Positions 1 to 5,492 of a stretch of 5,650 nt of DNA are shown here, piece by piece (positions within the stretch are counted from its first letter, which is position 1; each line of letters begins with the position of its first letter). The notes beneath the pieces are model-generated. The model was not told where the DNA came from. It did not search any database and saw only the letters and a list, made by a program, of their open reading frames with translations. This DNA comes from JACRDV01 sp024860865 [NCBI: Methanobacteriota archaeon] (GTDB lineage: Archaea > JACRDV01). A program made the translations under genes and the position numbers. The stretch covers positions 1 to 5,650 of the forward strand of contig JACRDV010000116.1 in NCBI GenBank assembly GCA_024860865.1, written 5' to 3'.

Positions 1-1
1 A

Positions 2-235
2 ATTACAAATATCCGAGGTAAGAAGAAGACTTTTATTGTAAGTAAATTTATTGAGTACGATAGGATTAGAGGCGTAGGAAAAATAGCTCATGTGAAGGAC
101 GGTAAAGAACCTTCTTTAACAAGGTTAGCAAAGAAACTGGGCATTAAAGAAAAAGAACTATTGCGAAAAGGAAGAAAGTTAGACCTTTATGACATTGCAA
201 TACTGAAGAGGGACTTTAAAGATGCTTTCGCCTAA
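2..235 (+). CDS. Unidentified basic protein, C-terminal 77 residues (cassette 1, 5' end outside window)
   Basis: An open frame runs from the window edge to a TAA at 233-235, with no internal stop, giving 77 residues rich in Lys and Arg. It includes stretches such as RIRGVGKIAHVKDG and LAKKLGIKEKELLRKGRKL, the latter resembling a short helical or helix-turn-helix-like segment. I do not recognise the family. The last sense codon and the stop (GCC TAA) lie inside the R'' box of the first attC, so the reading frame runs into the recombination site and ends in Phe-Ala. The truncated toxin of the next cassette ends in the same kind of way (Ile-Ala), so this protein too may have been shortened when attC became attached. 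Its start and total length cannot be seen. Confidence 0.6.
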   Translation: MTNIRGKKKTFIVSKFIEYDRIRGVGKIAHVKDGKEPSLTRLAKKLGIKEKELLRKGRKLDLYDIAILKRDFKDAFA

Positions 236-318
236 CACAGCATAAAAGGTTCGTGCCTTATGGCACTTACCCAAATTTTTGCTTTGCAAAAACTTCTTTT
301 ATGCTGGAGCCGTTAAAT
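230..318 (+). repeat. attC: attC recombination site A (complete, 89 bp)
   Basis: R'' is GCCTAAC at 230-236 and R' is GTTAAAT at 312-318, both fitting RYYYAAC and GTTRRRY. The inner stem is exact over 11 bp: CAGCATAAAAG at 238-248 pairs with CTTTTATGCTG at 296-306. Between the stems lie two perfect hairpins, GTGCC/GGCAC (253-257 and 262-266) and TTTTTGC/GCAAAAA (276-282 and 286-292), joined by a CCAAA linker. Unpaired bases (307-311) separate L' from R', as in the unpaired spacer of known attC sites. R'' and R' match only partly in their outer halves. That is expected when the R' outer half (TTAAAT) was brought in by a different cassette. The predicted crossover point is between G312 and T313. 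Confidence 0.88.
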
Positions 319-334
319 AGATAAACATAGAAAT

Positions 335-340
335 GGAGGT
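335..340 (+). promoter_or_regulatory. Ribosome-binding site that sets the antitoxin start
   Basis: GGAGGT at 335-340 lies 7 nt before ATG 348. It overlaps the earlier in-frame ATG at 333, so translation should begin at 348, not at 333. Confidence 0.8.
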
Positions 341-347
341 AAAAATT

Positions 348-560
348 ATGTACGAAAAAGATATCGAGGTGAAAGTGCGAGAACTTCCTGAAGATTTGAG
401 GGGGGCGGTTTTAGATTATATGGATTTCCTACTACAGAAGTATAAGAGCAAGAAGGTCGCGGCGAAGAAGTTTAGGTTTAACTGGGAGGGGGGCTTATCA
501 AATATCCGGAAGAAATTCACTTCCGTTGAGCTGCAACATAGAGCTTTGGAGTGGAGGTAA
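348..560 (+). CDS. DUF2281-like (VapB-type) antitoxin, 70 aa
   Basis: This small protein resembles the DUF2281 antitoxin group that pairs with PIN-domain toxins in archaea and some bacteria. An N-terminal segment with the pattern LPEDLRGAVLDYMDFL (residues 13-28) forms the likely helix. It is followed by a basic linker, a FRFNWEGGLS motif (42-51) and a C-terminal SVELQHRALEW helix (59-69) that typically contacts the toxin. An in-frame ATG 15 nt upstream (333) would add five residues, but it overlaps the ribosome-binding site, so 348 is preferred. The stop (558-560) shares its last base with the start of the toxin frame, a coupled toxin-antitoxin layout. It lies 29 bp after attC A and is transcribed away from it. 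Its partner is truncated, so the antitoxin may be an orphan or may counter toxins encoded elsewhere. The family call is by pattern recognition only. Confidence 0.75.
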   Translation: MYEKDIEVKVRELPEDLRGAVLDYMDFLLQKYKSKKVAAKKFRFNWEGGLSNIRKKFTSVELQHRALEWR

Positions 561-694
561 TGTTTTTAGTTGATACAAATGTATTTTTGGAAATCCTCTT
601 GAGGCAGGATAAGAAAGAAGATTGTAAACGTTTTCTGGACAATAATATCGGCAATCTCAACATAACAGATTTTTCTTTGCACTCCATCGCCTAA
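560..694 (+). pseudogene. Truncated VapC/PIN-domain toxin, 44 aa, cut off at attC B
   Basis: The frame opens at ATG 560, overlapping the antitoxin stop by one base. It begins MFLVDTNVFLEILL, the classic start of a VapC-like PIN ribonuclease with the first catalytic Asp at residue 5. It continues to NITDFSLHSI (34-43), where Asp37 matches the second acidic position of related PIN toxins. PIN toxins are usually about 125-145 residues; here the protein ends after 44 as Ile-Ala-stop, and the GCC TAA comes from the R'' box of attC B. The last two acidic residues of the active site are therefore missing and nuclease activity is unlikely. GGAGGT at 553-558 sits only one base from the ATG, which is tight but usual for overlapping pairs. 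The break coincides exactly with the recombination site, so it arose with cassette formation or rearrangement and not from a random nonsense mutation. This last point is inference. Confidence 0.75.
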
Positions 695-768
695 CAGCGG
701 ATAAAAGGGAAATCAAAGATTTCCCCAAATTGCCTTCGGCAACCTCTTTTATCCGCAAAACGTTAGGC
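689..768 (+). repeat. attC: attC recombination site B (complete, 80 bp)
   Basis: R'' GCCTAAC (689-695) and R' GTTAGGC (762-768) are perfect inverse complements, extended to 9 bp if the flanking TC/GA is included. The inner stem is an exact 11 bp: GCGGATAAAAG at 697-707 against CTTTTATCCGC at 746-756. One unpaired base on the left (A696) and AAAAC on the right (757-761) form the spacer between the R and L stems. Two hairpins fill the interior: GGGAAATC/GATTTCCC (707-714 and 718-725) and TTGCC/GGCAA (730-734 and 738-742), joined by a CAAA linker. This is the clearest attC in the window. The predicted crossover is between G762 and T763. Confidence 0.93.
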
Positions 769-780
769 GAAACGAAATTT

Positions 781-786
781 GGAGGG
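781..786 (+). promoter_or_regulatory. Ribosome-binding site of the nuclease cassette
   Basis: GGAGGG at 781-786 sits 6-7 nt before ATG 793 and only 18 nt after the attC crossover point, leaving little room for a promoter inside the cassette. Confidence 0.75.
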
Positions 787-792
787 TAGTAA

Positions 793-1452
793 ATGGGTGA
801 AATACTTGGATACGGAGAAGATGCCTTTACCCTGTGGGCAATAAAGAAACTTATTTCTGAAATTCTTAATAAATTGAAAGACCGCTCAAGCCCATCAGAT
901 TGTCTTATATTTTTTCGCCCAAGTTTCGGTCGAAGTGGAGGCAAAGAGAGTGAACAATTCGGGGAATTCGATTCAATTCTAGCTTCTCCAGAAAACATAT
1001 ATCTGATAGAAAGTAAGTGGGATAATTTTTCAGAAAATAAAGAGGATGAAATTGAACTTGAGCACGAACAAGTGTTACGGCATGAACTTTTTACATGGTA
1101 TCACAAAAATTGGATGTCCCAAGGATATCGAGATTGGAAAGAATTTAGAACTGTACTACAAAATGATTTTGAAAGGAATTTTCTGGATAGAAAGAAGGCG
1201 ATTGCCCCAGTGGGAAGCTTATTGGCCGAAAATCTGGAGTTTGTATTAAGGAAGTTAAAAGAGCACTTTAAAGAATTTTCTTGTGTTTACAAAGAGCCAA
1301 AAAATGTCCTATTCTATTTTTATAACAAAAATAGATCAAAAGAAATATGGAAAGTTAGATCTAAAGATGTAGATGTAAAAGATGTAAATTTCGAAGTAAT
1401 AAATATTGATTACAGTCAATATGTTTTGGGCAATTTCATTCACCTGGATTAA
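793..1452 (+). CDS. PD-(D/E)XK nuclease-like protein, 219 aa (cassette 3 cargo)
   Basis: The N-terminal 80 residues show the layout of the PD-(D/E)XK nuclease fold. A helix near the start carries Glu9 (GYGEDAFTLWAI). A strand follows with FGEFDSI (Asp60), and after it a strand with YLIESKW, in which Glu73 and Lys75 form the E-x-K part of the motif. A basic FFRPSFGRSGG segment (40-50) precedes Asp60. The remaining 140 residues are charged, mixed helix and strand, with no membrane segment or second domain I can name. The protein probably cuts or binds DNA and may act as a restriction- or defence-like enzyme, but the target is unknown and no methyltransferase or other partner lies beside it. The start at 793 is supported by the GGAGGG upstream. 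It is a single-gene integron cassette, ending 9 bp before the next attC. Fold assignment is from motif spacing and needs a profile search to confirm. Confidence 0.6.
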   Translation: MGEILGYGEDAFTLWAIKKLISEILNKLKDRSSPSDCLIFFRPSFGRSGGKESEQFGEFDSILASPENIYLIESKWDNFSENKEDEIELEHEQVLRHELFTWYHKNWMSQGYRDWKEFRTVLQNDFERNFLDRKKAIAPVGSLLAENLEFVLRKLKEHFKEFSCVYKEPKNVLFYFYNKNRSKEIWKVRSKDVDVKDVNFEVINIDYSQYVLGNFIHLD

Positions 1453-1461
1453 TTTCGCTTC

Positions 1462-1510
1462 GCCTAACAGAGCGTATCTGACTTCGTGCCTTCGGCACTA
1501 CGCTCAAATT
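1462..1510 (+). repeat. attC: attC recombination site C (left half only, R' box missing)
   Basis: R'' GCCTAAC is intact at 1462-1468. GAGCGTA (1470-1476) pairs with TACGCTC (1499-1505), and between them lies the same GTGCC-TTC-GGCAC hairpin (1486-1498) that is conserved in the other sites. The CAAATT linker (1505-1510) also aligns with those of attC A and B. Beyond it there is no second hairpin and no GTTRRRY box at the expected distance. Either the right half was deleted, or this is a short attC whose R' has decayed. In both cases it should be a poor substrate for an integrase, and it marks the end of the array. Confidence 0.65.
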
Positions 1511-1603
1511 CCCTAAGACAATGGGGTTCTAACAGGGTTCTAACCATGCTAGACTAGTAAACTTTAGAGGATTGAGCACACAGATTGGACAATTAGAAAA
1601 GAG
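1511..1603. other. Junction between cassette array and chromosome, no gene seen
   Basis: The stretch holds no convincing reading frame or RNA. Its one notable element is a tandem 11-bp unit, GGGTTCTAAC plus one base (1524-1534 and 1535-1545). The unit contains CTAAC, which resembles the end of an R'' box. The stretch is probably remnant DNA at the eroded right edge of the array. Confidence 0.4.
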
Positions 1604-4229: not shown

Positions 4230-5492
4230 ATGAAAGCCCATATCAACCTAGTATTTATAGGTCATGTGGATCATGGTAAGTCAACATTGATTGGTAGAAT
4301 GCTCTTCGATGCTGGAATGATTTCTGAAAAAGATCTCCTTAAGCTTAAAGAATATGCAAAAGCAATTGGAAAGGAAACCTTTGAGTTTGCATTTATTATG
4401 GATAAGTCGCGTGAAGAACGAGAGCGCGGTTTAACAATTGATATAGCATATAAAGAGCTTTCAACGCCAAAAAATGACATAACAATAATCGATGCCCCTG
4501 GTCATCGTGACTTCGTTAAAAATATGATCACTGGTGCTTCACAAGCTGATGCAACTGTTTTAGTTGTAGCTGCAGATGATGGAGTTATGCCTCAAACAAG
4601 AGAACATGCTTTTCTTGCAAAAACACTTGGCATCCGTCAAATTATTGTTGCGATCAATAAAATGGATTTGGCTAACTATAACCAAAGCAGATACGATATG
4701 ATAAAAGCTGATGTTGAGAAATTATTGCTCTCAATTGGCTATAAGCTAGAGGAAATTACTTTCACTCCAATTTCAGCGTTTCACGGAGACAATGTCGTTA
4801 AAAGAAGTTCAAAAATGGGTTGGTATGATGGATTAACTGTTTTCGAAGCTCTTGATCAACTTAAGCCACCTCTAACAAAGCCAGTTGATAAACCTCTGAG
4901 AATTCCAATTCAAAACATATTTTCCATTAAAGGTGTCGGTGCTGTTCCAATCGGCAGAGTTGAAACTGGAATTTTGAAAGTTGAGCAAGAAGTGATTTTT
5001 GAACCAGCCCATGTGAAAGCTGAAGTAAAAAGTATTGAAATGCACCATAAAAAATTGGATAAAGCTGAACCCGGCGATAACATCGGTTTTAATGTGCGCG
5101 GCATCAGCTCAACTGACGTTCAAAGAGGGGATGTTTGTGGGCCAATCGATAACCCCCCACTTGTGGCTAAAGAATTTGTTGGGCGTATAATTATACTTGA
5201 GCATCCCACTTCAATTTCTTTAGGGTATACCCCTGTACTGCACTGCCACACTGCAACGGTTCCATGCGTTTTCACAGAGCTAATTCAAAAACTCGATCCA
5301 AGAACTGGTGCTGTTATTGAAGAAAAGCCAAAGATGTTAAAGAAAGGGGATGCTGCTGTGGTTAGATTAGTGCCAACTAAACCTCTAGTAATCGAGAAAG
5401 TTAGCGATTTCCCGCCATTAGGAAGATTTGCTCTAAGGCATGGCGGTCAAACAGTAGCAGTTGGCATGTGCATTGAGGTAGTCTCTCGATAA
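4230..5492 (+). CDS. tuf: Translation elongation factor 1A (archaeal EF-Tu equivalent), 420 aa
   Basis: This GTPase delivers aminoacyl-tRNA to the ribosomal A site. All G motifs are present: the P-loop GHVDHGKS (11-18), ERGLTID with Thr69 in switch I (65-71), DAPGH (88-92), NKMD (143-146) and SAF (182-184). Domain II begins near residue 221 (KPLRIPIQNIFSIKGVGAVPIGRVETG) and domain III ends with LGRFALRHGGQTVAVG (407-421 region) and a short tail. The length of 420 residues and the insertion between the P-loop and switch I (KLKEYAKAIGKETFEFAFIMD) are those of archaeal/eukaryotic EF-1A, not bacterial EF-Tu. This is the best evidence for an archaeal host. The ATG is preceded by AAGGGG and a TATA-like element, so it is likely transcribed alone from its own promoter. 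The ribosomal protein S10 gene that often follows it in archaea is not seen in the next 158 bp. Confidence 0.97.
   Translation: MKAHINLVFIGHVDHGKSTLIGRMLFDAGMISEKDLLKLKEYAKAIGKETFEFAFIMDKSREERERGLTIDIAYKELSTPKNDITIIDAPGHRDFVKNMITGASQADATVLVVAADDGVMPQTREHAFLAKTLGIRQIIVAINKMDLANYNQSRYDMIKADVEKLLLSIGYKLEEITFTPISAFHGDNVVKRSSKMGWYDGLTVFEALDQLKPPLTKPVDKPLRIPIQNIFSIKGVGAVPIGRVETGILKVEQEVIFEPAHVKAEVKSIEMHHKKLDKAEPGDNIGFNVRGISSTDVQRGDVCGPIDNPPLVAKEFVGRIIILEHPTSISLGYTPVLHCHTATVPCVFTELIQKLDPRTGAVIEEKPKMLKKGDAAVVRLVPTKPLVIEKVSDFPPLGRFALRHGGQTVAVGMCIEVVSR

Follow-up and report, generated by a model that had tools for sequence, protein, structure and literature searches.

The stretch of DNA analysed here (the window) is the whole of contig JACRDV010000116.1 (C70; 5650 bases) of the Methanobacteriota archaeon JACRDV01 sp024860865, and its positions 1-1512 hold three gene cassettes pointing rightwards, each a gene followed by a site resembling the attC recombination sites of integrons. 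This gene-then-attC order, seen in the letters alone in a preliminary description, holds throughout those bases; all features given below with window positions lie on the + strand.

Sites and cassettes of the window

Two of the sites are complete: site A at 230-318 and site B at 689-768, 371 bases apart, with exact inner stems and with predicted cuts between 312 and 313 in A and between 762 and 763 in B. Pattern, finder and fold evidence all uphold the earlier claim of two complete sites with boxes and exact stems. The pattern GCCTAACN{55,85}GTTRRRY, its gap widened to 55-85 bases as a narrower one missed the sites, matches the + strand of the whole genome at A and B; its reverse matches are B itself, one place on contig C116 and two overlapping places on C130, while a backward control pattern has two reverse matches across the genome. 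A purpose-built attC finder, which demands both boxes plus an inner stem, scores A at 26 and B at 30, with 19 at the next best place in the window; the class 1 integron sites that it detects in four plasmid stretches score 24-30, though it misses some real ones (L032 4999-5058 and L036 4995-5055, both detected by R1, a narrow covariance model of ten class 1 sites). In 400 dinucleotide shuffles of the window a score of 26 was reached in six and of 30 in one, counts that refer to single sites before two are required together, and across 42 archaeal stretches (283,728 bases) two places score at least 26, one of them on the host's contig C134. The bottom strands of A and B fold with z of -5.73 and -7.93, as good as which none of 200 shuffles was. 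Together A and B make up a CALIN (a cluster of attC sites lacking integron integrases: two or more attC sites with less than 4 kb between them and no integrase), attC status here being that given by our own finder and models.

Site C (1462-1512) is the left half of an attC-like site, with an R'' box at 1462, an end placed by eye at about 1512, and no right half. Of the partial third site in the preliminary description, the R'' box and left half stand; its bottom-strand fold is weak (z -2.07, with 7 of 200 shuffles as good). Right after it, by eye, GGGTTCTAAC is present twice at 1524-1545; the Cloacimonadota contig discussed below has a similar GGGGTTCTAA after a GCCTAAC box (L023 2888-2935).

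Cassette 1, clipped by the start of the contig, retains 77 amino acids (aa) of an open reading frame (ORF; 2-235) that terminates within the R'' box of site A and for which no Pfam family was found at E 0.001. Cassette 2 encodes a DUF2281 protein (333-560; Pfam PF10047, E 3.8e-14), probably an antitoxin, and the first 47 aa of a PIN-domain protein (551-694; Pfam PIN, E 0.0059, below the curated cut-off); this second gene stops within the R'' box of site B after those 47 aa, so that the cassette seems to pair an antitoxin-like gene with a toxin-like one that has been truncated. Cassette 3 encodes a 219-aa protein (793-1452) with a weak likeness to NERD nucleases (E 0.064, below the cut-off), and is spanned by an inverted repeat of 18 bases (94%) with its left arm at 762-779 and its right arm at 1451-1468.

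This repeat is the window's instance of a pairing between cassette ends. Across 29 cassettes, the pairing between the start of a cassette and the stretch before a site is stronger within one cassette than between different ones; none of 2000 permutations reaches the observed sum, and 11 of the 29 own pairs score at least 20, versus 11% of cross pairs. Such pairing may help a cassette to fold as a single unit. Other regularities were seen at the cassette ends: TTGCAC occurs in the 130 bases before 11 of the 43 sites of stretches L157-L176, versus 39 of 1508 background windows, and cassette starts are often TTATACGCAATTCG-like. Two cassettes outside arrays (L094 8755-8775 and L023 720-742) have T|TTAGGC at their start instead of the expected G|TTAGGC, perhaps a sign of insertion at a secondary site.

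A common cassette and the spread of the site family

A pattern-based scan of genome contigs, which detects close relatives only, gave a single relative of the 219-aa protein, in Candidatus Cloacimonadota bacterium RS_16_45 (JAGMCF010000083.1); a pattern-based search of viral contigs gave none. Window 763-1470 and the bacterial contig are identical at 631 of 693 ungapped bases, with 18 gap columns, and the two proteins agree at 184 of 214 aligned residues. The nonsynonymous and synonymous distances (dN 0.074, dS 0.233) indicate that the protein was under constraint. The alignment starts at 763, the first base past the predicted G|TT cut, and extends into the R'' box, beyond which the sites diverge. 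Site B, which serves the preceding cassette in the window, is closely matched by the site belonging to the bacterial cassette; sites seem to have been exchanged between cassettes. The preliminary description had suggested that cassettes moved into an archaeon and were exchanged with bacteria, and this is borne out in part: one cassette is common to a bacterium from the cut point onwards, while no IntI above cut-off accompanies it, the Cloacimonadota genome having, like the host, no match above the IntI cut-off. In the Cloacimonadota contig the 3' end of the gene preceding the common cassette (L023 430-735) is repeated about 1.5 kb further on (1930-2265), and looks as if copied by insertion.

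Two further covariance models were built, R2 from sites A and B and the Cloacimonadota site, and R3 from 15 sites of the host and Cloacimonadota genomes. R2 gives 77.1 bits to A and 103 bits to B, both of which are in its seed. R1 recognises two class 1 sites outside its own seed (70.2 and 59.6 bits), but scores B at only 8.4 bits (E 4.4), A being absent from its matches. The covariance-model check that had been proposed thus came out at background with the narrow class 1 model, and the models that do detect A and B were trained on them. The best R1 score on four archaeal stretches is 12.0 bits (E 0.71), and class 1 arrays score no higher than 12.0 bits (E 2.1) with R3. Each of these top matches lies at a real site, as do several other weak ones, though none is above background; since R1 and R3 do not cross-detect, the class 1 and archaeal site types are far apart in sequence, with a faint kinship possible. 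They also differ in structure: A, B and the Cloacimonadota site share a two-hairpin loop and an uneven spacer, and the predicted inner stems of A and B have no extrahelical base, whereas a class 1 site folded alongside has a one-base bulge.

With R2, further host sites were found on C128, C54, C116 and C36 at E 2e-5 or better, with a second site on C36; R3, whose seed includes these five, gives the same ones and another on C77. The proposed search for more attC sites elsewhere in the genome thus gave six, on five other contigs. A cassette of C128 encodes a ClpP-like protease and is flanked by genes for a tRNA synthetase (D, K and N type) and for SMC; on C36 a nucleotidyltransferase/HepT pair lies between the two sites, beside pyrI and a pyrB-like ORF. 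Beyond the host, at E up to 0.01, in the phylum of the Cloacimonadota genome R2 has matches in 15 of 124 genomes, and R3 has them in 72 of 394 archaeal genomes, from 60 of 252 genera; both counts take in the seed genomes, E-values of both models are rough, and the filters of these large scans drop weak matches. Three of the 72 (G295, G357 and G093) are single-contig genomes. In G357 the genes between two sites (L157 3664-9499) include NurA-like and HerA-like proteins that match defence models.

Many sites of the family are single and lie between genes, and this, together with the background scores of the class 1 model, would suit structured repeats such as terminators or non-autonomous elements, with no role in recombination. 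We regard that explanation as very improbable. Across the 15 sites, changes on both sides are found in 20 of 25 pairs (covariation 0.477, versus at most 0.117 with slid partners), and 43 other sites, none from the seed genomes, give 0.560 versus at most 0.093, both alignments being fitted to the model structure; all the while the TAAC and GTTA ends are kept. The common cassette, moreover, starts at the very base predicted by attC logic, and in stretch L163 an integrase is followed by seven sites with ORFs between them.

To the right of the array lie a gene for a histone-deacetylase-family protein (1898-2965; Pfam PF00850, E 2.2e-88), a lipoprotein-like gene (transglutaminase-like match below threshold) and a gene for elongation factor EF-1A (4230-5492), found by profile and PDB matches. 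The top PDB match of the last is elongation factor 1-alpha (E 1.6e-164), ahead of the best EF-Tu (E 5.6e-58), in agreement with the earlier report of an archaeal EF-1A on the same contig. It is one of two in the host genome (G000); the second (C134 4534-5787; L078) is 59% alike to it, and in a tree the window copy is sister to a clade of archaea with two copies each, not to the C134 copy. A synteny check found no deacetylase, lipoprotein-like gene or counterpart of ORF 1604-1780 beside the EF-1A genes of two-copy archaea. Window 1-1600 has no blastn match to plasmids at E 1e-5, the three Rfam matches at E up to 10 are all under their gathering scores, and the first bases of the window have no 20-base match in the examined stretches of C40, C125, C36, C54, C116, C128 and C34.

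A chimeric assembly or a misbinned contig, in which a bacterial array was wrongly joined to archaeal genes, has to be considered, as the host is a metagenome assembly (1.54 Mb in 160 contigs; 92.45% complete, 0.73% contaminated) and the window's EF-1A is not sister to the host's other copy. However, two EF-1A genes are also present in 6 of 120 other archaeal genomes searched. The occurrence of sites on five other host contigs, among them C128 with its tRNA synthetase and SMC genes and C36 with pyrI, and in three single-contig archaeal genomes makes this explanation quite improbable. Given those six other two-copy genomes, misbinning among archaea is neither shown nor excluded.

Integrases beside the sites

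The preliminary description had proposed a search for an intI-type recombinase elsewhere in the genome. The search gave nothing in the host above the IntI cut-off (265 bits); there are broken integrase copies on C36, C40 and C125, that on C36 starting 168 bp from a site, and C152 encodes a 319-aa protein with a weak recombinase match (E 4.9e-4). Nor does any of the 72 site-bearing archaeal genomes have a match above the TIGR02249 (IntI) cut-off. Some integrase match at E 1e-20 is present in 34 of them, and the matches listed are mostly split around model positions 180-237.

For comparison, 42 integrase loci from site-bearing archaea were set beside 14 control loci from genomes outside the 72; five fragment loci and the host's own copies are not among the 42, and the stretches vary in length, many being cut by contig ends. 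A site at E up to 0.001 is present in 16 of the 42 versus none of the 14 controls, which have none even at E up to 1, and in all 16 the nearest site points away from the integrase. Nine loci have an open frame of 257-284 aa with a site no more than 1.5 kb away, and all share one arrangement, the site lying upstream of the integrase on the other strand at a distance of 246-1306 bp; in two single-contig genomes, G295 and G357, the site is 246 and 256 bp away, respectively. L161, which is among the nine, is without a segment near the catalytic lysine. In several relatives GTTATACGAA-like boxes were seen by eye between the integrase and the first site, and might, as a guess, be a putative attI.

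The insert specific to IntI, which IntI1 has, is absent from all 11 site-linked integrases aligned with it. The G295 integrase has as its best PDB match IntI4 (2a3v; E 3.3e-46), which we take to be a Vibrio integrase, but IntI4 has residues 186-240, which the match skips; XerA comes next (E 1.4e-43). Five archaeal site-linked integrases score 199-246 bits on the XerA model NF040815 (cut-off 220), whose own NCBIfam description reads tyrosine recombinase/integron integrase, and 175-238 on the IntI model. Archaeal XerA (NF040815; PDB 5hxy and 4a8e) is like them in size and in having no insert, but differs in that they score nearly as high on the IntI model, unlike control L203 (354 bits on XerA, 148 on IntI); control L216 is intermediate.

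An IQ-TREE tree of 56 rows has one group of 31 rows, with support of 86/76 (under the tool's mark for strong), that takes in the 11 site-linked integrases as well as IntI1, a Cloacimonadota integrase and the host's C40 fragment. Twelve of 13 controls lie outside this group, and the thirteenth has a very long branch; also outside is L169, with its site at a distance of 7.2 kb, and site-linked and other integrases are intermixed inside. FastTree without the controls gives the same grouping, with support of 0.57. The Cloacimonadota integrase (363 aa; L106 8370-9461, contig C141 of genome G061) groups with the archaeal site-linked ones, and a weak R2 site (27.9 bits) is also present on its contig.

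The explanation that we favour, and hold to be rather probable from the sequences compared, is that the window carries a leftover array of an archaeal integron variant whose integrase has no I2 helix. What the window holds would be the end of a small array, its last three cassettes, in the chromosome of an archaeon, and a tyrosine recombinase would cut the sites in their right-hand box, between the G and TT. This recombinase is likely to be the integrase related to IntI and XerA that is without the IntI-specific insert (I2 region), since in relatives it adjoins the sites and is divergent from the array as in classical integrons. The host's copies of that integrase being broken, the array is probably a leftover, although integrases of other cells could still move it; the last site would have been truncated by a later rearrangement.

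Several results weigh against this. No integrase match at E 1e-20 was found in 38 of the 72 site-bearing genomes. Ten of the 42 loci were picked for nearness, and of the other 32 only six have a site, three of them within 1.5 kb. Control L216, with no site, scores 262 bits on XerA and 235 on IntI, much like the site-linked integrases, and the label of site-adjacent is no more clustered on the tree than in shuffles (10 changes versus a mean of 10.2). The first two of these would also fit an ordinary CALIN of the kind known in archaea, whose cassettes were moved by a classical IntI that was lost, was not assembled or belonged to another cell, the XerA-like neighbours being coincidental. CALINs are the commonest form reported in archaea (PMC9668308), and in the tests of that paper IntI1 recombined eight of nine archaeal attC sites, with comparable frequencies. 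A classical IntI nevertheless sits poorly with the lack of any match above the IntI cut-off in the 72 genomes, and coincidence with the one arrangement of all nine close pairs, two of them in single-contig genomes, versus none among the 14 controls. We therefore consider this alternative unlikely, though it deserves to be taken seriously, and retain the integron variant with an insert-less integrase.

Relation to known integrons

Archaeal integrons, which the preliminary description called only recently reported, were published by Ghaly and others in 2022 (PMC9668308), and archaeal integron cassettes as such are already known. That paper describes attC clusters mostly without IntI, accessory cassette genes and exchange with bacteria, all of which are found here as well, and the window has the two sites less than 4 kb apart by which it defines a cluster. 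There are two differences: its archaeal IntIs carry the IntI-specific domain, which the site-linked integrases here do not have, and it excludes single sites, which many of those here are. With the class 1 integron (IntI1; L032-L036) the present sites share gene-then-site order, R boxes, a folded site and, in relatives, a divergent integrase; they differ from it in the stem bulge and in sequence, as described above, and in the missing integrase insert.

That insert is considered essential for the capture of cassettes, and PMC7790495 regards it as necessary. Among the matches listed from open-licence PMC titles and abstract openings, no report of integrases without I2 at attC arrays was found. 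What appears to be new is a branched and dispersed site family that the class 1 model does not detect, linked to an insert-less integrase, with none above the IntI cut-off.

A bolder proposal, which we advance tentatively and with more doubt than confidence, is that of an integron lineage of archaea and some Cloacimonadota whose integrase never had I2, or lost it, and would read the branched, bulge-free sites differently, with cassettes crossing between the domains by way of a common pool. Since IntI1 falls among the site-linked integrases in the trees, these may be the nearest living relatives of a form that preceded I2.

The cassette common to the archaeon and the Cloacimonadota bacterium is a tangible example of archaeal-bacterial exchange. 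Insert-less integrases could also be the reason why most attC clusters of archaea seem to be free of integrases, given that detection requires the IntI-specific domain (PMC9668308), and their presence beside folded arrays in single-contig archaea would make the origin of integrons testable.
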